DNA of 64,000 nt from Leadbettera azotonutricia ZAS-9. GTDB lineage: Bacteria; Spirochaetota; Spirochaetia; Treponematales; Breznakiellaceae. This document shows, one piece after another, positions 19,847 through 31,622 of this stretch. The notes under the pieces were generated by a model. It saw nothing but the letters and a program-made list of their open reading frames with translations. It did no database searches and was not told the DNA's origin. Every line of letters starts with the position of its first letter. Within the stretch, counting starts at the first letter, position 1. The position numbers and the translations under genes were made by a program. Where the stretch lies: positions 1,225,121 to 1,289,120 of the forward strand of contig NC_015577.1 of assembly GCF_000214355.1 (NCBI RefSeq), written 5' to 3'.

Positions 19847-19909
19847 AGCAATAGCCAAATCCATCGGGCTTGACTTTTCTGGTTATATTTGATAATTTGT
19901 CAAAACCCT

Positions 19910-19982
19910 GGGCCGCTAGCTCAGTCGGTAGAGCAACGCCCTTTTAAGGCGTGGGTCACGTGTTCGAATCCCGTGCGGCTCA
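19910..19982 (+). tRNA. tRNA-Lys (anticodon TTT)
   Basis: A 73-base cloverleaf: acceptor GGGCCGC/GCGGCTC, D-arm GCTC…GAGC, anticodon stem ACGCC/GGCGT with loop CTTTTAA, T-loop TTCGAAT, discriminator A. CCA is not encoded. The T-stem (ACGTG/CCCGT) has one T-C mismatch at its second pair. The gene is followed by an integrase stub (20120-20260), so its 3' end has probably served as an attachment site. Confidence 0.95.
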
Positions 19983-20119
19983 TTTTTGTAATTCTTTATG
20001 TTATAAGGAATTACGACAATGAAAATGGTGGTGGCTTTAGCCTCAACCACCGGAAGACCGGAGCTATTACTTCCAAACTGATGGGAAAGGTTACAGTAAA
20101 ACCTTTCCAGAAGGGGGGT

Positions 20120-20260
20120 ATGGCTAACCGGTCTTTTTATTTGTTCAAACACAAGAACGGCATATTTTACGCTGAATTTCATGATAAGGTATCTGGGGTG
20201 CGGATTGCACGTTGTCCAAAATCCCCAATACCCATACAAGACCAAGACAAACCATTTTAG
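20120..20260 (+). pseudogene. N-terminal stub of a tyrosine-type integrase
   Basis: A 46-codon frame with its own AAGGGGGG ribosome binding site. It reads ANRSFYLFKHKNGIFYAEFH… and then KVSGVRIAR. This matches, from memory, the opening beta-strands of tyrosine recombinases in treponemal genomes (FYLFKR-GIYY-V-F-D type). After about 32 residues the similarity ends and the frame stops in low-complexity DNA. No catalytic domain is present nearby. Position just beyond tRNA-Lys fits the remains of an integrated element whose body was lost. Confidence 0.55.
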
Positions 20261-20296
20261 TTTAAAACAAAACTGTATAAAACAAAACAAAACAGC

Positions 20297-20325
20297 TTGA
20301 CACTGATAATAAAACCTATTATTGT
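20297..20325 (+). promoter_or_regulatory. Promoter with an internal dyad, upstream of modD operon
   Basis: TTGACA (20297-20302), a 17-base spacer, and TATTGT (20320-20325). Between and over these lies a dyad ATAATA-N5-TATTAT (20306-20322), flanked by GACA and TGTC. An AT-rich dyad covering the spacer and -10 is where a metal-responsive repressor (Fur, DtxR/TroR type) would act. It does not match the ModE consensus as I recall it. The rest of the 369-base gap 19983-20351 holds the integrase stub and A-rich DNA. Confidence 0.6.
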
Positions 20326-20351
20326 CCTTGTAGCTAACCAAGGAGAAACTC

Positions 20352-21194
20352 GTGTTTATTACTGACGAAGAAATCGGTCGGCTTATCTCTGAGGATGTAC
20401 CCTACTTTGATTTAACAAGTCATGCCTTGGGTATAGGCAGGGAAAGAGGACAAATAGAGTACTTTACCAGAGGAAATATAGTGATATGCGGAACTGAAGA
20501 AGCAGCTCGAATATTCCGGTATCTGGGCATCGAAACCAAAAACTGTACCCCGTCGGGTCAAAAAGCAGCCGCAGGCTCGGTCCTTATCACCGGGACCGGG
20601 GCAGCAGAACAGCTTCTTATGGCATGGAAGGCAGCGCAAAACATTCTGGACCACCTTTCGGGGATAGCTACCCTAACCCGGCACATGGTGGAAGAAGCGA
20701 GGAAATATAACCCCCGGATAGCCATACTTACTACCCGGAAGGGGTTCCCTGGTACCAAGAAGCTTGCAGTCAAGGCCACTCTCGCAGGCGGGGCTGTTCC
20801 CCATCGGCTGGGAATTTCCGAAACCATTTTGATATTCAAGCAGCACCTGAATTTTATTGGCGGCGCCGAGGGCCTTATCAAAAAAATGCCCGCCCTAAAG
20901 GGGGAGTGCTGCGAAAAGAAAATTCTTGTGGAAGCGGAAAGCTACGATGAAGCACGCCAATACTGCCGGGCCGGGGCCGATGGCATACAATTTGACAAGC
21001 TGCCCCCGGAAGCTTTGGGAGAAGCAGCCAAGCTGTTAAAGAAAGAATTTCCGGGGGTAACCCTGCTTGCCGCCGGGGGTATCAAACCGGAAAATGCAGG
21101 CGCGTACGTAAAAACCCAGATAGACGGCATTGTAACCACAAGCCTATTCAATGCCCCGCCTGTGGATATTGGGGTAAGGATAAACCCGGTATAA
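20352..21194 (+). CDS. modD: ModD, molybdenum-transport-associated phosphoribosyltransferase-like protein
   Basis: 280 residues, a homologue of quinolinate phosphoribosyltransferase (NadC). The N-terminus (FITDEEIGRLISEDVPYFDL) and the active-site stretch (TTRKGFPGTKKLAVKA, AGGAVPHRLGISETIL) fit the ModD subgroup. ModD genes are known from molybdate-uptake operons; the reaction is not established. The start is GTG at 20352, backed by AAGGAGAAA and by the usual ModD opening. It is the first gene after the promoter at 20297 and leads a plus-strand run up to 31622. Its presence is the main hint that the downstream transporter handles molybdate or tungstate. Confidence 0.85.
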   Translation: MFITDEEIGRLISEDVPYFDLTSHALGIGRERGQIEYFTRGNIVICGTEEAARIFRYLGIETKNCTPSGQKAAAGSVLITGTGAAEQLLMAWKAAQNILDHLSGIATLTRHMVEEARKYNPRIAILTTRKGFPGTKKLAVKATLAGGAVPHRLGISETILIFKQHLNFIGGAEGLIKKMPALKGECCEKKILVEAESYDEARQYCRAGADGIQFDKLPPEALGEAAKLLKKEFPGVTLLAAGGIKPENAGAYVKTQIDGIVTTSLFNAPPVDIGVRINPV

Positions 21195-21228
21195 ACCGGC
21201 TTATAAAAAAGGCAAAAGGAGATTGGCG

Positions 21229-21993
21229 ATGAAACAAAGAACCGTCCGGCGGATATTTCCGTTAACCGCAGGATGTATATTCTGTCTCGCGCTGACTGCA
21301 AACCTTGCAGCAGCCCCTGCTGCAGAAAAAGCAGTCTCGTCAAACGCTATTTCATCGCCAGGCATGTTCCCCGGGAATCCCTTTATCGGAGTTTGGCAGG
21401 CAGGGGACGCTGTCTATAATTTTACTGCCGACGGTAATTTCACCACTGTAAGTACCCACTGCTGCGGGCTCCGGTTTCTGGATGAGTATTCCTACTATAT
21501 TTATAAGGACACCCTCATCACCTACGGTGCATTGATGGGCGGCTCTCCTAACATAAAGCAGTATTCGTTTGCTGTCCTAAATACAGGCGCCATCAAGGTA
21601 ACAAGCGGGGGTGGAACCGAATGGCTATACTCCCGGCTTTCGGAAATTCCCCACGAGCTGATAGCCAGGGAAGAAGATTTCTTTGGGTACGCACCGGAAC
21701 AAAACGGGACAAACCCCTTTGCCGGGAAGTGGAATGTAGAAGCGGGGAACCTGCAGTCCCGAGGAGCAAAATCCCTGGAATTCAGGACAGACGGGACGGC
21801 CAGTATTCGATCCGGGGGAGGCCGCTCCACAGAATCCTGTTATCTGGTACGGGAAGACGGCCTTGCCTTAATTACCCTAAAGGGCAAAACACCGCTTATA
21901 CAGGAATACACTTTTGAAGCGCAAAAAGAAGGCATTACGGTAAACGAAAAAGAAACCGGCCTTTTATGGGCTTTTCTTAAAAAGGGAAACTAG
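21229..21993 (+). CDS. Exported two-domain NPFIGxW protein with HCCG motif
   Basis: About 254 residues. The signal peptide ends TANLAAAPA. The mature part has two similar domains, each opening NPF(I/A)G-x-W: NPFIGVWQAGDAVYNF (near 45) and NPFAGKWNVEAG (near 163). This is the G-x-W opening and YxF-x-DG strand pattern of lipocalin-like barrels; I infer a calycin-type fold. Domain 1 carries HCCG at residues 77-80, repeated in the protein at 25785 but nowhere else here, a plausible soft-metal site. The start is ATG 21229 with AAAGGAGAT upstream; TTG 21223 is less likely. Not a known family to me. Confidence 0.7.
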   Translation: MKQRTVRRIFPLTAGCIFCLALTANLAAAPAAEKAVSSNAISSPGMFPGNPFIGVWQAGDAVYNFTADGNFTTVSTHCCGLRFLDEYSYYIYKDTLITYGALMGGSPNIKQYSFAVLNTGAIKVTSGGGTEWLYSRLSEIPHELIAREEDFFGYAPEQNGTNPFAGKWNVEAGNLQSRGAKSLEFRTDGTASIRSGGGRSTESCYLVREDGLALITLKGKTPLIQEYTFEAQKEGITVNEKETGLLWAFLKKGN

Positions 21994-21994
21994 A

Positions 21995-22792
21995 ATGAAA
22001 AAGGATCCTGCTCATTTCCACACTGTTTTGGGACTTTGCCTGATAAGCCTTGCCGCCTGTTATAGCGAACCGGAAATAAAAAACGATTCCCATACGTTCC
22101 TGACAAATCCTTTTATCGGAAGATGGCAAACGGGAAGCGAATATTACGAATTTAGGGAAGACGGAACAGGGGGGGTATCCTCAAATTTGAACGGGCCTTT
22201 TGCAAATGATTTCAGTTATTTTATCTGGTATGGACAGGGACTGGGTAATTTACCAAAGCATAATACCCTGATTACCGCCGGGGGAGATACCACCACTGCC
22301 GGGAATGCAGAGATAAAACAATTTGCTTTTTTGGTTAATTCCAATGGAACCATTACCTGTACCCCCCAGATTTTGACGCCCGCTGCCAATGGGTCCTTTA
22401 CCATTGCCCCTGATAGCGCCGCTGCGGCGGTATTTAATCCTCTGGGAAGCGCCGCAAATAAATCTTTCGCCTTGCATAATCCCTTTATCGGGGAATGGCA
22501 TGCGGCATGGAATGGTTCTGAACACGAAGGCAGTGACAGTACCTGGTCGTATCAATTCAGGGCCGATGGAACGGTAAAAACGTATCACCATGGCCTGCAT
22601 CAATTTGAAAACGGGTACCTCGTCCGTGGGCAGGTTCTGGTAATACTGGGCGAATGGCGTTTTAACGATAACTTTGGTTACATATCTTCCACCTTTACGA
22701 TACATGATAACGGCAATATCAGCAGCGATGAACAGGATCATGGCGGATTGCATTGGGATTTTACGCGGGTTGATACCGCAGAATGGAAATAG
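21995..22792 (+). CDS. Two-domain NPFIGxW lipoprotein
   Basis: 265 residues with a lipobox near residue 22 (SLAACYSEPE). Two domains of the operon's shared family: NPFIGRWQTGSEYYEFREDG (near 38) and NPFIGEWHAAWNG (near 163). Domain 2 is His-rich (TYHHGLHQF and QDHGGLHWDF), which could bind metal. It has no HCCG; the equivalent region in domain 1 reads SSNLNGPFANDFSYF. The gene starts one base after the preceding stop and is followed 12 bases later by the multicopper oxidase, so it is in the same transcript. Likely a periplasm- or surface-anchored metal-binding protein (inference). Confidence 0.7.
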   Translation: MKKDPAHFHTVLGLCLISLAACYSEPEIKNDSHTFLTNPFIGRWQTGSEYYEFREDGTGGVSSNLNGPFANDFSYFIWYGQGLGNLPKHNTLITAGGDTTTAGNAEIKQFAFLVNSNGTITCTPQILTPAANGSFTIAPDSAAAAVFNPLGSAANKSFALHNPFIGEWHAAWNGSEHEGSDSTWSYQFRADGTVKTYHHGLHQFENGYLVRGQVLVILGEWRFNDNFGYISSTFTIHDNGNISSDEQDHGGLHWDFTRVDTAEWK

Positions 22793-22804
22793 GGAGGAAT
22801 AAAA

Positions 22805-24262
22805 ATGAAAACGAAGATTAATTTATGGAAAAACTGGTGCTATTCCTTTTGGGTAGTGATAGCCCTGTCGGCCCTGCTGTCAATTATTTCCTGTGGGGAA
22901 GCAGGCGGCGGAAACGATGAGGTTTATGATGAACCCAAAACTGTCATTAATCCTTTTAATATTTTGTCCTATGAACCTAAAACCAACTATAGCATTGATA
23001 TTACAAGCGATGAAATCGCATTAAGAACGATAGGACAAAAAACCAGGGTGTCTCGATATGAAACTGGACTCCCCGGCGGCATGATTATTGTTCCCCGGAA
23101 CCAGGAGCTGAATTTTCATGTTACAAATCATGATGTGGACTCAACAAGTCTCCACTGGCATGGCCTAAGGGTCCCTTATGACCAGGACGGTCCCGGTAAA
23201 ATGATTGATAAGAATAATGCGGCTGATTTTACTTTTACCCTGAATATGACTGGAACCCACTGGTACCATCCCCACATGCGGCCAATTTTGCCCCAGCTTA
23301 ACGCTGGCCTGTATGCGCCTTTTATTGTGAAGGAAGATTATGACAGCAAGTATGCCGGTGATTATGTGCTTACCCTTGATGACTGGTATCTTGGATCGGA
23401 CAATCAACTTGACAGCGGCAGCGACTCCCACGGAAGTATGGATGTAACGGGCTCCCTGGAAACAGTGAATAAACAACGAGGATCGGACATTTATCCCATT
23501 ACGTTAAAACAGGGGGAAATCGTCAAGCTGCGTTTTATTAATGCATCAACCTCCCAATATCACACCATATCAATGGAGGGGCATACATTCCGTGTTACCC
23601 ATTTGGATGGACATTATTTGCAGGATCCCTATACGGTGAACAATTTCAGGCTCGCAGCAGGAGAACGGGTCGATGTGGAATTGAAGGGGATAAAGAATAG
23701 CGGAACCTATTATATCAGAAACGGACGAAGTTATGGTATCCGTATTCCTGTTATCTATGAGGGAATAGGGGAAGAAATGGAATCTCCTTTTGTACCCGGC
23801 CCATCCGAAGCATTTCCGAATATTGAAAGCCAGCCGGTGGATCATGAGTACCATCTTAATTCCGGAATGAACGGCGGAAGCGGGGGGCATGAAGGCGGCG
23901 GTTCCATGCTCATGGAATGGTACATCAATAATGTGGCTTATCTTGACGGGAGTGAACCCATAGATATTCAGACTGTTAGCGTTGACACGGTGTATAAATT
24001 CCGGTTTATTAACGAAGAAGGATCTGGCATGATGCATTCCACGGTTTACCATCCCATGCATTTACATGGGGGACATTTTCAGGTGGTATCCCTGAATGGC
24101 ACACCGCCGCCCCGGGAAACATTCAAAGACACACAGGAAATTCCTCCGCTTCAATATGTTGATATTGCGGTCAAATTTTACAATCCCGGCGATTGGATGC
24201 TCCATTGCCACATAATCGATCATGAAGATAACGGTATGTTGACCATTATCCATGCAGAATAA
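22805..24262 (+). CDS. Multicopper oxidase, lipoprotein
   Basis: 485 residues; a laccase/CueO-like enzyme that oxidises a substrate (Cu(I), Fe(II) or phenols) and reduces O2 to water. All copper ligands are visible: HWHG (H117, H119), HWYHPH (H152, H155, H157), HPMHLHG (H416, H419, H421) and HCHIIDHEDNGM (H467, C468, H469, H473, M478). The signal ends LSIISCGEAGG, so it is probably lipid-anchored at Cys30 or so. A Gly/Met/His-rich insert (MNGGSGGHEGGGSMLM, near 356) recalls the Met-rich copper loop of CueO. GGAGGA precedes the ATG. It lies between NPFIGxW genes in the metal-uptake operon, which favours metal oxidation over lignin-type chemistry. Confidence 0.92.
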   Translation: MKTKINLWKNWCYSFWVVIALSALLSIISCGEAGGGNDEVYDEPKTVINPFNILSYEPKTNYSIDITSDEIALRTIGQKTRVSRYETGLPGGMIIVPRNQELNFHVTNHDVDSTSLHWHGLRVPYDQDGPGKMIDKNNAADFTFTLNMTGTHWYHPHMRPILPQLNAGLYAPFIVKEDYDSKYAGDYVLTLDDWYLGSDNQLDSGSDSHGSMDVTGSLETVNKQRGSDIYPITLKQGEIVKLRFINASTSQYHTISMEGHTFRVTHLDGHYLQDPYTVNNFRLAAGERVDVELKGIKNSGTYYIRNGRSYGIRIPVIYEGIGEEMESPFVPGPSEAFPNIESQPVDHEYHLNSGMNGGSGGHEGGGSMLMEWYINNVAYLDGSEPIDIQTVSVDTVYKFRFINEEGSGMMHSTVYHPMHLHGGHFQVVSLNGTPPPRETFKDTQEIPPLQYVDIAVKFYNPGDWMLHCHIIDHEDNGMLTIIHAE

Positions 24263-24288
24263 TTTTTTTCATAAAAAGGAGAAGAAAA

Positions 24289-25704
24289 ATGAAAAGAAAC
24301 AGTAAAATGCGGGGCGGAATCATAGCCATTGCTATAGCCGCCATCACAATTGTCCTGGGTTGTTCCCAGCCGAACGGGGATGACGAAGGAGGAGGGATTA
24401 TCGGATTCACCTTCACGGCAGCTTCAGGTTTGAAGTTGGGGAGTCCCAATACATCTATAGGCGCCGTGGCCGGAACCTTTAGCATTGCATCGTGGATATC
24501 CGCTCCGTATACCTATGCCCTGGTGGCCGGGAGCGGCGGCAATGACGTGGACAACGCAAAATTTGAGATCGAAAATGAAAAATTAAAGATCAAGACTGTA
24601 TTGCAGGTTGCAAAGGTATACAAGGTATATCTACAGGTTAGTGACAGCGAGGGGAAAAATTTTTCCAAGGGCGTAGAGTTCAGTATAGCCGGCAGTATCA
24701 CCGGTGTACCGGCAGAGTGGTATATGGGAGTTCCTCTTGATTTAACGAGTGTTGTAGTGAATCTTCCGGAAGCGCCCGATAAAACAGCGGCGGATATTGT
24801 ATGGGCCAGGAATAGCGCTGGCGCGGATTTTGCGGCCGAAACAGGGATCTACGAAGATCATGTGTTTTATCCTGAAACCTTCGGCAGTACCACCCTCTGG
24901 GCGATCGTCGCTGATGGAGATGGAAAAGATGATAACCATAGCGAGTCATTTACGGTAAATTTTCTTTTTCCCCCAAATCCCTTTATCGGATCATGGACCG
25001 GCAGTGACAGTGCAGTATGGACCTTCAAAACAAACGGGACCTTTGGCAGAGATGCCGTTGCCGATTATGGCAGTTTTGCGGTATGGAGCGGAGCCCAAAA
25101 CCGTAAATTCATGATTGCCGTTACCGGAGACCCCGATGAAATTACCGTAACAAATGTTACCCAAGCGTACTATTCAACTAGCGAAGAAGCAAAGGGGGCG
25201 TATCAGGCATACTCCTATGAATTGGGCAATAATTTTATTAAAATAACTCCCATAACCTTTGAATATGACGCAGCTAATAAACAGGATGCCATGCTGTTTG
25301 AGAGTTCCGGAGCTCCTATTACCCTTACCCGGATAAGCGGTGAACCGGCGCCCCTTGATTTATCGGGGAGCGTGCAGTATGGTGATTGGAAGGGGGGGTT
25401 TAGCGAAAATCCCTTCACTGAACCACACGCCCCAATAACCAGTAGTCCGGGTCTCCACTATTATGCAAACGGAAGCGTCAGGCAGAATTATGACGGCGCA
25501 TGGCTAAACCGTGGCGCTGTCCACGCCATCGTTGGAGCGGCAGGCAGGCGCTGGGACCCGCCTGTTGTAAGTTCCAGGGACACAATTCACGACACAAGCG
25601 GCGGAGAGATAGTCATAATACATGAGTATCGGCCTGAGAAAGGCGGACCCTTCTCTCGGGGTACCAGTGCCAACTTATACTGGAATATACAGAAGGTACA
25701 GTAG
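24289..25704 (+). CDS. Large NPFIGxW lipoprotein with extra N-terminal domains
   Basis: 471 residues. The signal ends ITIVLGCSQPNG (lipobox). Residues about 40-215 look like two Ig/cadherin-like beta domains (FTFTAASGLKLGSPN…, then FSIAGSITGVPAEW…). Then comes a family domain opening NPFIGSWTGSDSAVWTFKTN (near 229) and a more distant one (YGDWKGGFSENPF, near 364) containing several His near its end. The ribosome binding site is AAAAAGGAGAAG. It is the longest of the four related proteins in the operon and directly follows the multicopper oxidase. A hairpin (25715-25751) separates it from the next gene. Confidence 0.65.
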   Translation: MKRNSKMRGGIIAIAIAAITIVLGCSQPNGDDEGGGIIGFTFTAASGLKLGSPNTSIGAVAGTFSIASWISAPYTYALVAGSGGNDVDNAKFEIENEKLKIKTVLQVAKVYKVYLQVSDSEGKNFSKGVEFSIAGSITGVPAEWYMGVPLDLTSVVVNLPEAPDKTAADIVWARNSAGADFAAETGIYEDHVFYPETFGSTTLWAIVADGDGKDDNHSESFTVNFLFPPNPFIGSWTGSDSAVWTFKTNGTFGRDAVADYGSFAVWSGAQNRKFMIAVTGDPDEITVTNVTQAYYSTSEEAKGAYQAYSYELGNNFIKITPITFEYDAANKQDAMLFESSGAPITLTRISGEPAPLDLSGSVQYGDWKGGFSENPFTEPHAPITSSPGLHYYANGSVRQNYDGAWLNRGAVHAIVGAAGRRWDPPVVSSRDTIHDTSGGEIVIIHEYRPEKGGPFSRGTSANLYWNIQKVQ

Positions 25705-25714
25705 AAAAGGAAAA

Positions 25715-25751
25715 ATGGAACCGGGTGGACAAAAGTTCCATCCGGTTCCAT
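25715..25751 (+). other. Long intergenic hairpin inside the operon
   Basis: A 15-bp stem with one G-T pair: ATGGAACCGGGTGGA, loop CAAAAGT, TCCATCCGGTTCCAT. No U run follows, so it is more likely an mRNA-stabilising or processing element than a full terminator. It begins 11 bases after the stop of the 24289 gene and ends 34 bases before the next start. Confidence 0.6.
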
Positions 25752-25784
25752 TATAACAGGGCGACTAATTTTTTGGAGACTGCT

Positions 25785-26585
25785 ATGAAAATGAAAAAAC
25801 CATTTGGAAATTGCCTAAAGAGAAACCTTATCCTCCGCTTTTACAGGGAAGGTATCCGGTGGCGGCTTCCGGTACTTATCTGTTGCGCTATACTGTTGGC
25901 TTCTTGCGCCAACGGGACTAATCCTGATGCCGGACTTGGCGATGACGACAGCGTTCCTTTACTCAATGCTTCCATCGCCGCTGTACCCTATGCAGAAAAT
26001 GGTCCGGATCTTGGACAACTTCAGGGCTGGCAATGGGCAAAAGAGGGAACGGATTTTAAATGGATTTTCAAGAACGACGGAACAATTTGGGTCATTCATT
26101 GTTGCGGAGAACTGTATAAAAACCAGTTTAGCTATCTAATAAGCGGAAATGTTCTTATCACCTATGGAACCGAGACAGAAAAAGCTGATGAACTTATCGT
26201 ATCAACTTTTACAATGGCAAGTGACAGCACTTCCTTTACCAGAACAGATGGTCTTGGCTTTGTCCGGGGAAATGCGGAGACCGCTGATACAGGCAATTTT
26301 CCGTCGCTGGTGTTGAAAAATGATTTTATCGGAAAGTGGCTGATGAACGATGGTTCAATATATCTATTCTCAAATGCTGGTGAGCTTACGATAACTTCTC
26401 CATCGGGTACGGAGGAGAGCTGCGCATACTTTATACGGGACAACCAATTACTTACCCTTGGCCCTTTGAGCGATGGAACAAAAGTACCATTACGGCAGTA
26501 CAGGTTCCAAAGGGGCAGCGGCAAAATAACACTGCGTAATGCCGCCGATAGCGGTAAATTTATCCTTACCCCGTTTGTTGAATAA
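25785..26585 (+). CDS. Two-domain NPFIGxW-type lipoprotein with HCCG motif
   Basis: About 266 residues from ATG 25785, chosen for the TTGGAGA site before it; a GTG at 25725 lies inside the hairpin. The lipobox is ILLASCANG (near 43). Domain 1 has lost the NPFIG opening but keeps WQWAKEGTDFKWIFKNDG and HCCG at residues 105-108, followed by YKNQFSYLISGNVLITYG, very like the protein at 21229. Domain 2 opens NDFIGKWLMNDGSIYLF (near 182). The shared HCCG-x(6-7)-YSY/FSY pattern shows the two proteins are paralogues. Function unknown; soft-metal binding is inferred. Confidence 0.68.
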   Translation: MKMKKPFGNCLKRNLILRFYREGIRWRLPVLICCAILLASCANGTNPDAGLGDDDSVPLLNASIAAVPYAENGPDLGQLQGWQWAKEGTDFKWIFKNDGTIWVIHCCGELYKNQFSYLISGNVLITYGTETEKADELIVSTFTMASDSTSFTRTDGLGFVRGNAETADTGNFPSLVLKNDFIGKWLMNDGSIYLFSNAGELTITSPSGTEESCAYFIRDNQLLTLGPLSDGTKVPLRQYRFQRGSGKITLRNAADSGKFILTPFVE

Positions 26586-26600
26586 ATCCGCTCGTTATAA

Positions 26601-27584
26601 ATGAGTATGAATTTTATAATGCATAAAAGACTCTTGTCTTTTTGCTTTATTGTTTTTATGGCGGCCCAAACCATCCAGGCCCTGCCGTATATTCCCGGAT
26701 GTCCTCTTCATGAAAGCTGTGTCCGCGCCTTGAGGAATGAACAGAGGAACAGGCGGCGGACCCTTAAGAACCAGGATCTGAATGATTTAGGCGCAACGGC
26801 GGGACATAACCTGAATATTGGCATTATCGCGGGTTTTGATGATCTGGCGAATAAATCAAGAACTCCTGTTTTTACTTTAAAACCTTCACTGGCGTATTTT
26901 GGCAGTTTTGGTAATTTTGATCTCTATGCAGGGGCCTTTTATACTTTTTTGTTTGATGATCCTCTGGGACAAAAAGGAGGGCTGCAGGAAACGCTGGGAT
27001 ATAATTTTTTCCCCGGAGATTCTTTCACAATCACGGTCGCTCTTGATAATGACAACCAGCTTAACATATCTCCCGGAGAACCAGCCTTCGCTTTTGCTTC
27101 GGCAGAACCCGGCATTTCGTTTACCATGGATTTGAAGCATGGAGAATTCTCCGCCGCCGCAGGCTTGCCCATAGACTATTCGGCCTTTTTAAATGCCAAA
27201 ACCGAAGCCGCCCGTGAAATCGCCATTGATTCCTATTTTACCCTGGGGTATACCTTTCCCTTCGGTCTCGGCATATCAACAACTTCCCGTATATGGGTCC
27301 GCCCGGATCTTGAATACGGAGAAACAGAACTAAACCTGATCTATGGGGCAAAATCATTTTACGGATCTTTTACAGTAACTGCCGATGACCGCTTCAAACT
27401 CTGGTCGCTTGAACCGTACCTGGCCTATACAGTTAAACAGGTAACTTTTTCGGCTTCTGTCCTGTTTGAAAATATCGGCGGCGCCGGAACAGGCAGCCCT
27501 GTAGTGGATACAGAAATCGGCGCAGACCGGATTGCCATCACCCCATCCATCGGGGTACGGTACCGGTTTGGAGAAAGGCTGTGA
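26601..27584 (+). CDS. Predicted outer-membrane beta-barrel protein of the metal operon
   Basis: 327 residues with a signal peptide (SFCFIVFMAAQTIQALP) and a mature N-tail with two cysteines and a histidine (IPGCPLHESC), then a basic stretch (RNEQRNRRRTLKN) and about ten amphipathic beta-strands ending ITPSIGVRYRFGERL. I infer an outer-membrane pore or receptor. No clear ribosome binding site precedes any of its possible starts (26601, 26607, 26619). Its end overlaps the GTG of the next gene (GTGA), so it is coupled to the binding protein. It may be the outer-membrane entry point for the ligand of the ABC importer. Confidence 0.65.
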   Translation: MSMNFIMHKRLLSFCFIVFMAAQTIQALPYIPGCPLHESCVRALRNEQRNRRRTLKNQDLNDLGATAGHNLNIGIIAGFDDLANKSRTPVFTLKPSLAYFGSFGNFDLYAGAFYTFLFDDPLGQKGGLQETLGYNFFPGDSFTITVALDNDNQLNISPGEPAFAFASAEPGISFTMDLKHGEFSAAAGLPIDYSAFLNAKTEAAREIAIDSYFTLGYTFPFGLGISTTSRIWVRPDLEYGETELNLIYGAKSFYGSFTVTADDRFKLWSLEPYLAYTVKQVTFSASVLFENIGGAGTGSPVVDTEIGADRIAITPSIGVRYRFGERL

Positions 27585-28726
27585 TTAAACGCATGATGGT
27601 AAAAAAATATATCCTCGGTATGATTCTGATCATACTCTTGGGCGTGCCTCTTTTTGCCAGGGGATCAGCTCAAGGCATTCGGCAGCCTTTGCCCTCGCGT
27701 CCCGAGATCCCGCCGGGATGGAAGCCTTTTACCATTATTGATATGGGAGGCAGGGAAGCGCTTATCGAAAGGCCGGTACAAAGGGTATATGCCATAAATC
27801 TCATTGGCGATACTTTTATCCGAGCCATAGACATAAGCAAAGCTGCAGGCTGGGCCAATCCTTATACCAGGGATGAAAAAAGATATATGGGTAAATACGC
27901 TCAACTCCCCATGTTGGGAGGATGGATGGGATCAAGCCCCACCGCCAACCTTGAGGAACTGGTCAAGGCCGATATTGATGTGATTTTTGTTACCGCCGCG
28001 GCCCTAAAAATAGGACCAGCGGAACATTCCATGGCGGATACTATTCAGAGCCAGACCGGAATAACTACGGTGCTCATATCCAATAACCTTTATGATACGG
28101 GAAACGCTTTGAGGCTTATGGGAAAGGTGATGGAGCTGGAAGAAAGAGGAGAGCTGCTGGCCGCCTACTGCGATACCGAACTTGCTAAAATGGAAACAGC
28201 TCTGGCAAAAATAAGCGAAAAGGAACGGAAGCGTATCTATTATGCCGAGGGCATCCAGGGGCTGCACACGGACCCCTCGGGTTCTTCTCACGCCCAGATT
28301 TTTGATTTTATGAGGGCTATCAATGTGGCGGATGTGGAGGAATTTACGGGTAATGGCATGCATGGCCAGGGGGCAGTATCTCTTGAGCAGGTTATCGCCT
28401 GGGACCCGGAGATTATTTTGCGGAACACTACCATGACGCAGGCAAATCCTTCTGCCGCAGTACAGGCCATCCTGCAAAACCCTGACTGGGCGGGGATTAA
28501 GGCAGTAAAAGAACGGAAAGTTTATCTTACCCCCCTTCTGCCGACTAACTGGGTAGACCGGCCGCCTTCGATCAACCGTATTCTTGGGATGAAGTGGCTG
28601 GCCAACCTTTTTTATCCTGATCATTTCTCCTTTGATATGAGAAGCGAAGCAAAAGAATATTTCCGCCTCTTTTATAATCTTGAATTAAACAATGAAGAGC
28701 TGGATCATATTTTAGGAAATAATTAA
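27581..28726 (+). CDS. Periplasmic metal-chelate binding protein (FecB/BtuF/MolA type)
   Basis: 381 residues. A signal peptide (ILGMILIILLGVPLFARGSAQG) without lipobox Cys, then the type III binding-protein fold with a long backbone helix: FTIIDMGGREALIERPVQRVYAI near 63, LEELVKADIDVIFVTAA near 125, VSLEQVIAWDPEIILRN near 267, and WVDRPPSINRILGMKWLANL near 323. This class binds ferric siderophores, cobalamin, haem or, in MolA, molybdate/tungstate. Start is GTG overlapping the upstream stop, with GGAGAAAGG before it. The ligand cannot be read from sequence; ModD in the operon points to an oxyanion metal. Confidence 0.85.
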   Translation: MIKRMMVKKYILGMILIILLGVPLFARGSAQGIRQPLPSRPEIPPGWKPFTIIDMGGREALIERPVQRVYAINLIGDTFIRAIDISKAAGWANPYTRDEKRYMGKYAQLPMLGGWMGSSPTANLEELVKADIDVIFVTAAALKIGPAEHSMADTIQSQTGITTVLISNNLYDTGNALRLMGKVMELEERGELLAAYCDTELAKMETALAKISEKERKRIYYAEGIQGLHTDPSGSSHAQIFDFMRAINVADVEEFTGNGMHGQGAVSLEQVIAWDPEIILRNTTMTQANPSAAVQAILQNPDWAGIKAVKERKVYLTPLLPTNWVDRPPSINRILGMKWLANLFYPDHFSFDMRSEAKEYFRLFYNLELNNEELDHILGNN

Positions 28727-29806
28727 TTGCACCATATTCCCATTGAAGGCATCCCGTCCCGCAATCCGGTTTTGCCGGGATCGGGAATAGCAGGACTGGT
28801 ATACCGCAGACGAGCCTGTTTTTTAACTGTCCTCCTTATTCCTGCTGCCGTTATAGTATTTCTGCTTTCAGTTGCATCAGGCCGCTATGCTATACCCTTG
28901 GGAGAAATCTTCTCGGTGATCGCAGGCAGGGGGGAGGGTATTTCTCGCCGGATTAGTGCCATAGTGCTTAATGTGCGGATTCCCCGGGGGGCCGCAGCCC
29001 TGCTCGCAGGAATGGGGCTTTCAGCTTCCGGCGCCGCATACCAAAGCCTTTTCCGCAATCCCATGGCATCTCCGGATATTTTGGGCGCTGCAGCGGGGGC
29101 CTCTTTCGGGGCGGCGTTGGGCATACTTATTAATCAGGGGAACGCGGCCATTCAGTTTCTTGCCTTTGTCGGTGGAATTGCCGCAGTGGGTTTGACCTGC
29201 CTCATTAACGGCATAGTAAACCGGAGGCAGCCAGGGCTTATCATGCTGCTCCTTTCGGGAATGGCGGTAGGCGGTCTTTTTACTGCACTGGTATCGGTAG
29301 TAAAATATTTTGCCGATCCTGACAATCAGCTTCCGGCCCTTACCTTCTGGCTTATGGGAGGCCTTGCGGGAGTGGAAGGCGGACAGGTCCGCACCGCAGG
29401 CATAATCATAGTGCTCTGTCTTTTGATTATGCATTTTAAGCGCTGGACGCTGAATCTGCTCTCCTTTGAAGATGATGAAAGTCAATCCATGGGGGTTTCC
29501 CTCAGACGGGAACAGGGTATAGTCATAATCCTTTCTACCCTGCTCTGTTCGGCTTCTATTTCTCTCTGCGGTCCTGTTGGATGGGTAGGGCTTCTTGTTC
29601 CACATACCGCCCGGATGCTGGCTGGTTCCAATAATCGGGATATGTTTCCCCTGGCGGTCCTTTTGGGAGGTATATACATGATGATTATGGATGATATTGC
29701 CCGGAACGCCGCAATGGTGGAAATCCCCCTGGGGATATTAACCGCCCTCATCGGGGCTCCCTTTTTTATCGTTCTCCTTTTTAGGGGAAATTATTTTAAG
29801 GAATAA
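28727..29806 (+). CDS. FecCD-family ABC permease, subunit 1
   Basis: 359 residues with about 9-10 membrane segments. FecCD hallmarks: VLNVRIPRGAAALLAGMGLS, FRNPMASPDILGAAAGASFG, FWLMGGLAG and CGPVGWVGLLVPHTARML. The start is TTG at 28727, directly after the upstream TAA, with AGGAAA about eight bases before it. Together with the next gene it should form a heterodimeric channel, as in FepD/FepG. Confidence 0.9.
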   Translation: MHHIPIEGIPSRNPVLPGSGIAGLVYRRRACFLTVLLIPAAVIVFLLSVASGRYAIPLGEIFSVIAGRGEGISRRISAIVLNVRIPRGAAALLAGMGLSASGAAYQSLFRNPMASPDILGAAAGASFGAALGILINQGNAAIQFLAFVGGIAAVGLTCLINGIVNRRQPGLIMLLLSGMAVGGLFTALVSVVKYFADPDNQLPALTFWLMGGLAGVEGGQVRTAGIIIVLCLLIMHFKRWTLNLLSFEDDESQSMGVSLRREQGIVIILSTLLCSASISLCGPVGWVGLLVPHTARMLAGSNNRDMFPLAVLLGGIYMMIMDDIARNAAMVEIPLGILTALIGAPFFIVLLFRGNYFKE

Positions 29807-29808
29807 AA

Positions 29809-30834
29809 GTGAAGGAAATAAAAGCTGTAACCGGCCGCAGGAAAAATCTGCTTATGGCATTGCTCATGATCCTCCCCTTGGGAGCAGCGGTTTTTTCCCT
29901 TTTCATCGGAAGGTATCATATTACCCCTGAAGAGTTTGCCAGGGCTATAGCAGCTTTTATAAATTCCGGGATAAATACCAACAACGCCGAAACGGTAATC
30001 TTTAAGGTACGGTTCCCCCGGATTATCGCCGCTGCCCTTGCCGGGGGGAGCCTTGCCGCTGCGGGATTGGCCTATCAGATCGTATTCCGCAATCCCCTTG
30101 CCTCGCCGGATGTACTTGGCGCTTCCGCAGGGGCAGGCTTCGGAGCCTGTATTGCCATCATCGCGGGCGCATCTCCCCTGGTAATTCAGGGAACGGCTTT
30201 TCTGTCGGGCCTTGCAGCGGTAGGCTTAACCTGTCTTATCTGCGGCAGACTGGGCCGTGGCGAGGCGGTGCTATACATCCTTGCAGGAATGGTGATCAAC
30301 GCGGTCTTTCATGCAGGCATAGGTTTGGTTAAATATACTGCCGATCCCTACAGCCAGCTTCAGACCATCACCTTTTGGCTTATGGGCAGCATGACCCTGA
30401 TAGAACTATCCCAACTGCCCATTCTGGCCCTGGGAACAGTAATAGGCATGATTCCCTTAATCCTTTTCCGCTGGAAACTCAACCTCCTCAGCTTTGATGA
30501 TACTGAATCTTCAAGTTTGGGATTGGACACTGTCCCTTTCCGGCTGCTCATTATTGCTGCCTCTACCCTCCTCTGTTCAGTTGCAACAGCAACTTGCGGC
30601 ATGGTGGGTTGGGTGGGGCTCATGGTACCTCACATTGCCCGCAGCTTGACCGGGGCCAATACCCGGTATCTTCTTCCTGCTTCCTTTTTAATTGGCAGTG
30701 CATACTTAATATTTATCGATGACATTGCCCGGATTATGCTCTCCATCGAATTACCTCTGGGGGTGCTTACTGCCATTATAGGCGTACCGGTATTCATCGT
30801 CTTGCTGGTGAAGGGACAGGGCAAATGGAAATAA
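29809..30834 (+). CDS. FecCD-family ABC permease, subunit 2
   Basis: 341 residues, paralogous to the preceding permease: VIFKVRFPRIIAAALAGGSL, FRNPLASPDVLGASAGAGFG, FWLMGSMTL and CGMVGWVGLMVPHIARSL. About nine membrane segments. The start is GTG at 29809, two bases after the preceding stop, with AAGGAATAAAA upstream. The stop overlaps the ATPase start by 10 bases. Two distinct permease genes, rather than one homodimer as in BtuC or MolB, suggest an asymmetric substrate path. Confidence 0.9.
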   Translation: MKEIKAVTGRRKNLLMALLMILPLGAAVFSLFIGRYHITPEEFARAIAAFINSGINTNNAETVIFKVRFPRIIAAALAGGSLAAAGLAYQIVFRNPLASPDVLGASAGAGFGACIAIIAGASPLVIQGTAFLSGLAAVGLTCLICGRLGRGEAVLYILAGMVINAVFHAGIGLVKYTADPYSQLQTITFWLMGSMTLIELSQLPILALGTVIGMIPLILFRWKLNLLSFDDTESSSLGLDTVPFRLLIIAASTLLCSVATATCGMVGWVGLMVPHIARSLTGANTRYLLPASFLIGSAYLIFIDDIARIMLSIELPLGVLTAIIGVPVFIVLLVKGQGKWK

Positions 30835-31622
30835 AGCAAAACAGCATAGAGGCAAAAAATCTTGCCTGCGGATATGGGGGTAAGGCTGTTATAACTGAAC
30901 TTGATTTTGTTCTTAACCGGGGAGAAATTCTTTGCATACTGGGACCCAATGGATCTGGAAAAACGACTCTCTTCAAAACCCTTCTGGGTTTTTTACCTCC
31001 TTTGAATGGAGAGATTCTTGCAGGCGGAGAGAACATAAAAACATGGTCCCGAAAAAAACTGGCCGAAAAAATTGCCTATGTACCCCAGGCGCACACCCCC
31101 CCCTTCCCCTATACAGTGGAAGATGTAATCCTTATGGGCAGGACTGTCCGTTTTGACAATCACCGAAACCCCCAAAAAAAGGATTATGAAAAGGCTGATG
31201 AGATTATGTCACTGTTGGGGATAGGGGATTTCAAATACCGGCTCTATACGCAAATAAGCGGCGGCGAGCGGCAGCTTGTCCTGATTGCACGGGCGCTGGC
31301 GCAGGAACCGGAATTTCTCATCATGGATGAGCCGGCATCCAGCCTGGATTTTGGCAACCAGATGCGGCTTCTCAAACATATTATCAGCCTTAAAGAAACC
31401 GGGGCAGGCATCCTGATGACAAGCCACCACCCGGATCATGTTTTTCTTTGTGCCTCACGGGTCATGTTAATCAGAGAAGGCAAATCTTTCGCCGCAGGAA
31501 CCTGTGATAAAGTACTGACTGAAGAAAACCTCAAGGCCGTCTATGGTATCGACATCAAGGTTATAAGTACCGCCGCCGGGGATGGCAGAATCATTCGATC
31601 CTGTATTGCCGATTTTTCGTAA
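30825..31622 (+). CDS. ABC transporter ATPase, FecE/BtuD/MolC type
   Basis: 265 residues with a full ATPase set: Walker A GPNGSGKTT (40-48), Q-loop YVPQ, signature SGGERQ, Walker B LIMDEP, and the switch His in TSHHPDHV. It energises the two FecCD permeases. It overlaps the permease gene by 10 bases and is the last gene of the run from 20352; no terminator is obvious in the next 100 bases. Confidence 0.93.
   Translation: MEIKQNSIEAKNLACGYGGKAVITELDFVLNRGEILCILGPNGSGKTTLFKTLLGFLPPLNGEILAGGENIKTWSRKKLAEKIAYVPQAHTPPFPYTVEDVILMGRTVRFDNHRNPQKKDYEKADEIMSLLGIGDFKYRLYTQISGGERQLVLIARALAQEPEFLIMDEPASSLDFGNQMRLLKHIISLKETGAGILMTSHHPDHVFLCASRVMLIREGKSFAAGTCDKVLTEENLKAVYGIDIKVISTAAGDGRIIRSCIADFS

Follow-up and report, generated by a model that had tools for sequence, protein, structure and literature searches.

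The 64,000-nucleotide stretch analyzed here (the window) covers positions 1,225,121-1,289,120 of a single 3,855,671-bp contig of Leadbettera azotonutricia ZAS-9, a termite-gut spirochaete, also known as Treponema azotonutricium, for which N2 fixation has been reported (PMC13067680). Within it, 11 open reading frames (ORFs), all on the + strand and spanning 20352-31622, encode ModD, a multicopper oxidase (MCO), four exported proteins with an NPFIGxW motif (N1 to N4), an outer-membrane beta-barrel protein (OMP) and an ABC importer comprising a periplasmic binding protein (SBP), two FecCD-type permeases and an ATPase. We propose, with moderate confidence, that this locus is an envelope molybdenum-acquisition operon serving Mo-nitrogenase. 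We consider molybdenum the most likely metal because the core of the system, which we define as the barrel, the lipocalin-like N proteins and the oxidase, lies in a nif-mod cluster of a relative (G247) and co-occurs with ModD and NifD, and because the importer resembles MolBC. A preliminary description of this DNA had envisaged capture of a scarce metal at the surface, redox handling in the periplasm and import by one fixed unit; the general scheme fits, with the metal now narrowed to Mo, but the fixed unit does not. The successive intergenic distances are +28, +1, +12, +26, +20, +15, -4, 0, +2 and -10 bases, in agreement with the small gaps and overlaps described previously. The features, in window coordinates, are as follows:

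20297..20325, +, candidate sigma-70 promoter TTGACA-17-TATTGT with overlapping dyad GATAATA..TATTAT (consensus only)
20352..21194, +, ModD (QPRTase-like); TIGR01334 229.6 bits, cut-off 178.85
21223..21993, +, N1, exported lipocalin-like two-domain protein, HCC motif at residues 79-81
21995..22792, +, N2, putative lipoprotein made up of two lipocalin-like domains, the second with an HHGLHQF motif; model pLDDT 82.7, lipocalin-like proteins in the PDB at Z about 11, DUF5640 weak
22805..24262, +, multicopper oxidase, putative lipoprotein with lipobox IISC and a reduced Met-rich loop; its homologue in L100, the G247 locus, is 57% identical
24289..25704, +, N3, putative lipoprotein in which lipocalin-like domains follow an N-terminal segment that looks cadherin-like by eye; the homologue adjoining the MCO in L100 is 44% identical
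25725..26585, +, N4, lipocalin-like putative lipoprotein with an HCC motif, possibly with a later start; its L100 homologue is 41% identical
26601..27584, +, predicted outer-membrane beta-barrel (OMP), mature N-terminus LPYIPGCPLHESCVRALRNEQRNRRR; peptide near-invariant in six aligned sequences
27581..28726, +, periplasmic binding protein (SBP), MolA-related; Peripla_BP_2; 4pag 2.9e-46, 4ovk 3.8e-21, MolA 3psa 1.9e-14
28727..29806, +, FecCD permease 1; best solved relative MolB 2nq2_A 7.1e-61
29809..30834, +, FecCD permease 2; best solved relative MolB 2nq2_A 7.5e-59
30825..31622, +, ABC ATPase; best solved relative MolC 2nq2_C 6.1e-41

An envelope core coupled to an exchangeable importer

The oxidase and ModD accompany the other core genes in the two most complete loci, namely the window and that of the metagenome-assembled genome Treponema sp. 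Mcx344_bin19 (G247; contig JAISSH010000134.1, locus L100). In the latter, the genes follow one another on one strand in the order nifD-nifK-(ferredoxin-like)-nifE-nifN/B-nifV-modA-peptide-MCO-N3-N4-N2-OMP-N2-modD-modB-modC, where "peptide" denotes a small membrane protein described below. The order MCO-N3-N4 is common to both loci, and the FecCD importer is absent from the G247 cluster, with ModABC in its place; the core is thus coupled to an exchangeable importer, MolBC-like in the window and ModABC in G247. Two features speak against a chimeric contig in G247, namely the presence of housekeeping genes (L108) and nif genes sharing about 80% identity with those of a congener. Within the same locus, a single 867-aa ORF (L100 15818-18421) fuses NifN-, NifB- and NifX-like regions. 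Four additional relatives have core genes in the orders OMP-N1-N2-N2 (G063), OMP-N2-peptide-N4-N3 (G036), OMP-N2-peptide (G170) and peptide-N4-N2-OMP-N2 (G184), these loci being mostly ended by contig ends. In relatives, the barrel, the lipocalin-like proteins and the oxidase are found again with no FecCD importer (the search for the binding protein did not extend to G170, G184 and G247), and we therefore rejected the idea of a fixed 11-gene system. The preliminary description had itself named such scattering without the transporter as a refuting outcome, and this has come about in part.

Among 200 genomes of the family, ModD was present in 4 of the 6 with the core vs. 6 of the 194 others (Fisher p 4.6e-5), and full-length NifD in 4 of 6 vs. 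13 of 194 (Fisher p 5e-4); the six core genomes fall in six genera, but these tests ignore phylogeny and genome incompleteness, which counts against the molybdenum proposal. Of the co-occurrence suggested previously, that of the NPFIGxW family with both ModD and FecCD genes, the part concerning ModD held up while the FecCD importer proved not to be conserved with the core.

Pfam matches confirmed the SBP (Peripla_BP_2), permease 1 (FecCD) and the ATPase (ABC_tran), and for both permeases and the ATPase MolBC (2nq2) is the closest among solved structures. The SBP is related to MolA, but the uncharacterised 4pag and 4ovk score higher. MolABC (HI1472-1471-1470) is a molybdate/tungstate importer of Haemophilus influenzae; it has a single permease gene, acting as a homodimer, whereas two distinct permease genes are found in the window and in G052, and it is without outer-membrane, lipocalin-like or oxidase partners. 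A tree of the family's FecCD permeases places both permeases of the window and both of G052 with one that adjoins a MoCF-domain gene and formate dehydrogenase (fork support 86/85), on a contig that also has ModABCD. The close G052 homologue (L033) resides on a 4.9-kb contig without a core gene, which neither supports nor refutes linkage, and G052 has only distant OMP and lipocalin-like relatives, at other loci. A separate clade comprises most of the family's FecCD systems, which are 30-40% identical and of which several adjoin TonB-like and DUF364 genes; these we excluded from substrate inference. Other FecCD importers of the family (L034, which is 912000-931900 of the ZAS-9 genome itself, L047, L081 and L084) are accompanied by genes for TonB or TonB-dependent receptor-like proteins, DUF364/DUF4213 heavy-metal-chelation proteins and cobW GTPases; L081 and L084 adjoin nitrogenase-like NifH/NifD genes.

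The window operon contains the sole ModD of the ZAS-9 genome but none of modA, modB and modC, which adjoin the nif cluster (NifH, two GlnB-like proteins, NifD, NifK, NifE, NifN and NifB) at about 2.95-2.97 Mb, roughly 1.7 Mb away; given modABC beside nif, we rejected the FecCD importer as the sole Mo route. In H. influenzae, too, Mol and Mod systems are believed to operate side by side (PMC4031551). The modABCD operons located beside nif, such as mopA-modABCD of Rhodobacter capsulatus, share with the window ModD and a Mo-nitrogenase host, and in G247 modA, modD, modB and modC flank the core next to nif; in contrast, modABC is not adjacent in the window, and for the R. capsulatus operon no protein of the core is mentioned; its ModD was detected in Mo-limited but not in Mo-replete wild-type cells (PMC6925177).

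A different metal might be carried by the FecCD importer. In an iron or siderophore acquisition system, which we regard as unlikely, it would transport a ferric chelate caught by siderocalin-like lipoproteins, with the oxidase as a ferroxidase or catechol oxidase and ModD as a passenger. FecCD transporters carry mostly iron chelates or cobalamin, and siderocalins are among the weaker fold matches. In addition, a dyad overlapping the promoter has a Fur-box identity of 13/19, the best at this site, although this score barely exceeds background (14 of 400 random window segments score equally high). The operon, however, is without TonB or a TonB-dependent receptor, the closest solved relatives of its permeases and ATPase are MolBC, and in G247 the core goes with ModABC and not with FecCD.

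Lipocalin-like proteins, the barrel and a shared peptide

The preliminary description correctly recognized N1 to N4 as related, exported, two-domain proteins, but their motif is uneven, with two copies of NPF[IA]GxW in each of N1 and N2, one in N3 and the variant NDFIGKW in N4; moreover, it overlooked both their lipocalin identity and the CPLHESC peptide discussed below. The GxW signature of lipocalins is part of NPFIGxW. When modelled with AlphaFold (from a 12-sequence alignment; pLDDT 82.7, pTM 0.79), N2 shows two beta domains, the C-terminal one resembling Bacteroides lipocalin-like proteins (Z 10.8-11.2, root-mean-square deviation 2.3-2.5 over 89-90 residues). With GxW and a lipocalin-like barrel in domain 2 of N2, the NPFIGxW proteins are, as judged by this model, lipocalin-like. 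They share these features with bacterial lipocalin-like proteins (PDB 4iab, 4gzv, 4i95) and differ from them in having two domains per chain, conserved His/Cys clusters and tandem paralogues. The clusters, which look like metal ligands, occupy equivalent places in both domains. In members of the N1/N4 type, domain 1 has HCC or HHC (all 6 when the family alignment was inspected by eye), and in those of the N2 type, domain 2 has HHx(2-3)HQF[ED]N (all 8). Lipobox-like signal peptides, as read from the sequence, would anchor N2, N3, N4 and the oxidase to lipid.

Prediction of the OMP (327 aa) as a 14-strand barrel, albeit at low confidence, and the Y-R-F ends of its relatives are in keeping with the outer-membrane barrel described previously, but the protein has no Pfam match. 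Given the low confidence of its structure model (pLDDT 50.7), we used the strand pattern alone and set aside the porin matches of the model as a functional clue. We did not find a FecA-type TonB-dependent receptor with a plug domain in the OMP, by Pfam or by this low-confidence model, which resembles porin-type barrels.

The mature N-terminus of the barrel, comprising 21 residues (LPYIPGCPLHESCVRALRxEQ), is near-invariant in the window and five relatives. A near-identical peptide is borne by a separate protein of ~100 residues with membrane segments in four of these five relatives and in G188, the latter matched by profile only; the small protein sometimes has CPFHESC or CPLHEYC instead, and no relative of it was found in the window genome or in G063. 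A DNA pattern for GCPxHESC matched in 6 of the 200 family genomes while its reversed control never matched, and a slightly longer pattern, run against the GTDB r220 species collection, returned five termite-gut spirochaete contigs together with two isolated matches in unrelated phyla (L105 and L107), which is about chance for the pattern length (estimated ~4 in the whole collection). Because two envelope proteins of one cluster, unrelated in other respects, have the same peptide, these sequences suggest a shared docking partner or a metal relay, and the peptide is an unusual clue to such a step.

Distant OMP relatives devoid of CPLHESC were seen at L166 (G052:C80, 7124-10087), L176 (G157:C38), L174 (G167:C188) and L161 (G252:C240), each with a lipocalin-like gene (HVHHG/HVHEG motif) and an SBP_bac_3-like gene nearby. 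At some of these loci a second lipocalin-like gene shows weak similarity to the NPFIG family, some are near FtsX-type ABC genes or ECF-sigma-like genes, and G167 has a DUF4418 protein whose GCPMHSMAC motif is reminiscent of CPLHESC. They are possibly a sister metal system.

The oxidase and its candidate substrates

As described previously, the operon contains a genuine ModD, scoring above the TIGR01334 cut-off, and a full multicopper oxidase, with all three cupredoxin domains and all four copper-ligand motifs complete (HWHG, YHPH, HPMHLH and HCHIIDHEDNGM). The best solved relatives of the oxidase are laccases, including the Thermus thermophilus enzyme. Cupredoxin domains and copper ligands are likewise shared with periplasmic oxidases of the CueO/PcoA type, from which the window enzyme differs in its predicted lipid anchor, its reduced Met-rich loop and its Mo/nif instead of copper neighbours. 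In CueO, the Met-rich region serves Cu(I) oxidation.

These features bear on copper handling as an alternative, in which the oxidase would convert Cu(I) to Cu(II), the lipocalin-like proteins with HCC and HHxxHQF motifs and the CPLHESC peptides would buffer copper, and the link to Mo would reflect Cu-Mo antagonism (thiomolybdate) or protection of nitrogenase. We consider this rather unlikely, while recognizing that the nearest spirochaete homologues of the oxidase (G017 and G107) are in clusters with HMA-domain genes resembling copper P-type ATPases, and that HCC and CxxHxxC resemble soft-metal sites. On the other hand, the Met count of the loop, 9-12 in these copper-cluster homologues, is down to 3 in the window and 1 in G247, and neither of the two full loci has a copper ATPase or efflux gene. 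The window oxidase also falls far under the cut-offs of the copper-resistance model TIGR01480 (122.6 vs. 478.95 bits) and of the CueO model (111.5 vs. 525 bits), and a FecCD importer is ill-suited to copper export. Since the Met-rich loop is reduced though the copper ligands are kept, we surmise that the oxidases of the window and G247 are probably adapted to a substrate other than Cu(I), a ligand of Mo being the more likely one. In this regard, phenolate siderophores are oxidised by E. coli YacK/CueO, according to Kim et al. 2001 as cited in PMC12364333.

Setting, proposed mechanism and significance

The operon is preceded by a tRNA-Lys gene (19909-19983) and followed by a gene on the opposite strand. 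The GC content at third codon positions (GC3) of its 11 genes is 0.44-0.55, lower than that of neighbouring genes (mean 0.583, sd 0.055), which suggests that the operon was acquired. A short ORF (ending at 20260) between tRNA-Lys and the operon looks by eye like the remnant of an integrase N-terminus, with no Pfam match; together with the tRNA (19909-20351 for the upstream part) and the low GC3, it may mark an island at a tRNA site. It could be argued that no single pathway is encoded here, and that in the window, as in the G247 mod operon, a surface-protein cassette has been inserted among unrelated transport genes. The GC3 and tRNA-Lys would fit this view, as would G238, with unrelated insertions between modA and modB. 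We find it quite improbable for several reasons: 1) two genera with differing importers both have ModD and the core in one run of genes; 2) the core is statistically linked to ModD and NifD; 3) gene spacing is very tight, with overlaps; and 4) no att-like repeat of the upstream tRNA was found. In G238 (L172, G238:C69, 426-9147), the genes that split modA and modB, at the position held by the core in G247, resemble by eye those for a lipoprotein, a formylglycine-enzyme-like protein and a barrel.

A single promoter had been assigned to the operon, and a good-looking one is indeed located at 20297, but the region has about as many promoter-like matches as chance would give (22 observed vs. 18.4 +/- 4.1 expected). 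The dyad overlapping it could, from its sequence, be the operator of a metal repressor. In both the window (20300-20326) and G063 (L072, upstream of OMP), dyads with TGATAAT/TGATATT half-sites coincide in part with the promoter region of the core operon, and these may serve in this way. Downstream of the operon (32036-62036) are very large ORFs (1712, 1275, 1242, 1449, 1272 and 975 aa), at least the first of which resembles a lipoprotein with Ig-like repeats.

From the gene content, folds and linkage observed, we infer the following steps of molybdenum acquisition. The barrel would admit Mo-bearing complexes, e.g. Mo on lignin-derived or siderophore catechols, or thiomolybdate with copper; the lipocalin-like lipoproteins would hold the complex or the metal; the oxidase would destroy the ligand, freeing molybdate, where O2 reaches the hindgut periphery; and the MolBC-like or ModABC importer would carry molybdate to the cytoplasm for FeMo-cofactor synthesis, ModD acting in the cytoplasm. 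More tentatively, we entertain a bolder version, namely a new class of diazotroph Mo-scavenging machine in which the barrel and the small membrane protein share CPLHESC as a docking or metal-relay peptide, and lipocalin-like carriers and a dedicated MCO extract Mo from ligand or copper-thiomolybdate complexes for delivery to the lineage's own Mo importer.

Several observations weigh against a role in molybdenum supply: 1) with modABC beside nif in the same genome, the operon is not the sole Mo route; 2) the core is physically joined to nif/mod in one relative only (G247); 3) full-length NifD was not detected in G036 and G184, nor ModD in G036 and G170, all drafts (76-91% completeness); 4) the site between modA and modB, occupied by unrelated surface genes in G238, may be an insertion hot spot; 5) an MCO depends on O2, whereas this spirochaete is considered anaerobic; and 6) the HCC and CxxHxxC motifs would also suit Cu(I).

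If the molybdenum proposal is correct, this would be the first described Mo system with dedicated outer-membrane, lipocalin-like and oxidase components, as far as literature searches show; in agreement with the preliminary description, which knew of no such gene set, these searches found no paper on the operon. We regard it as a variant of metal-acquisition systems, the core of which is possibly new. An analogous case of a diazotroph taking Mo from organic complexes is the catecholate molybdophore uptake of Azotobacter vinelandii (PMC3440940), but the window operon lacks a TonB receptor and siderophore synthesis genes, and the MCO step would be new. On thiomolybdate, a review states that knowledge of its bioavailability is very limited and suggests mechanisms not yet known (PMC3440940). 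The question addressed by this locus is how nitrogen fixers of sulfide- or ligand-rich anoxic habitats are supplied with Mo and, with a cultured termite-gut diazotroph as host, the proposal is directly testable.

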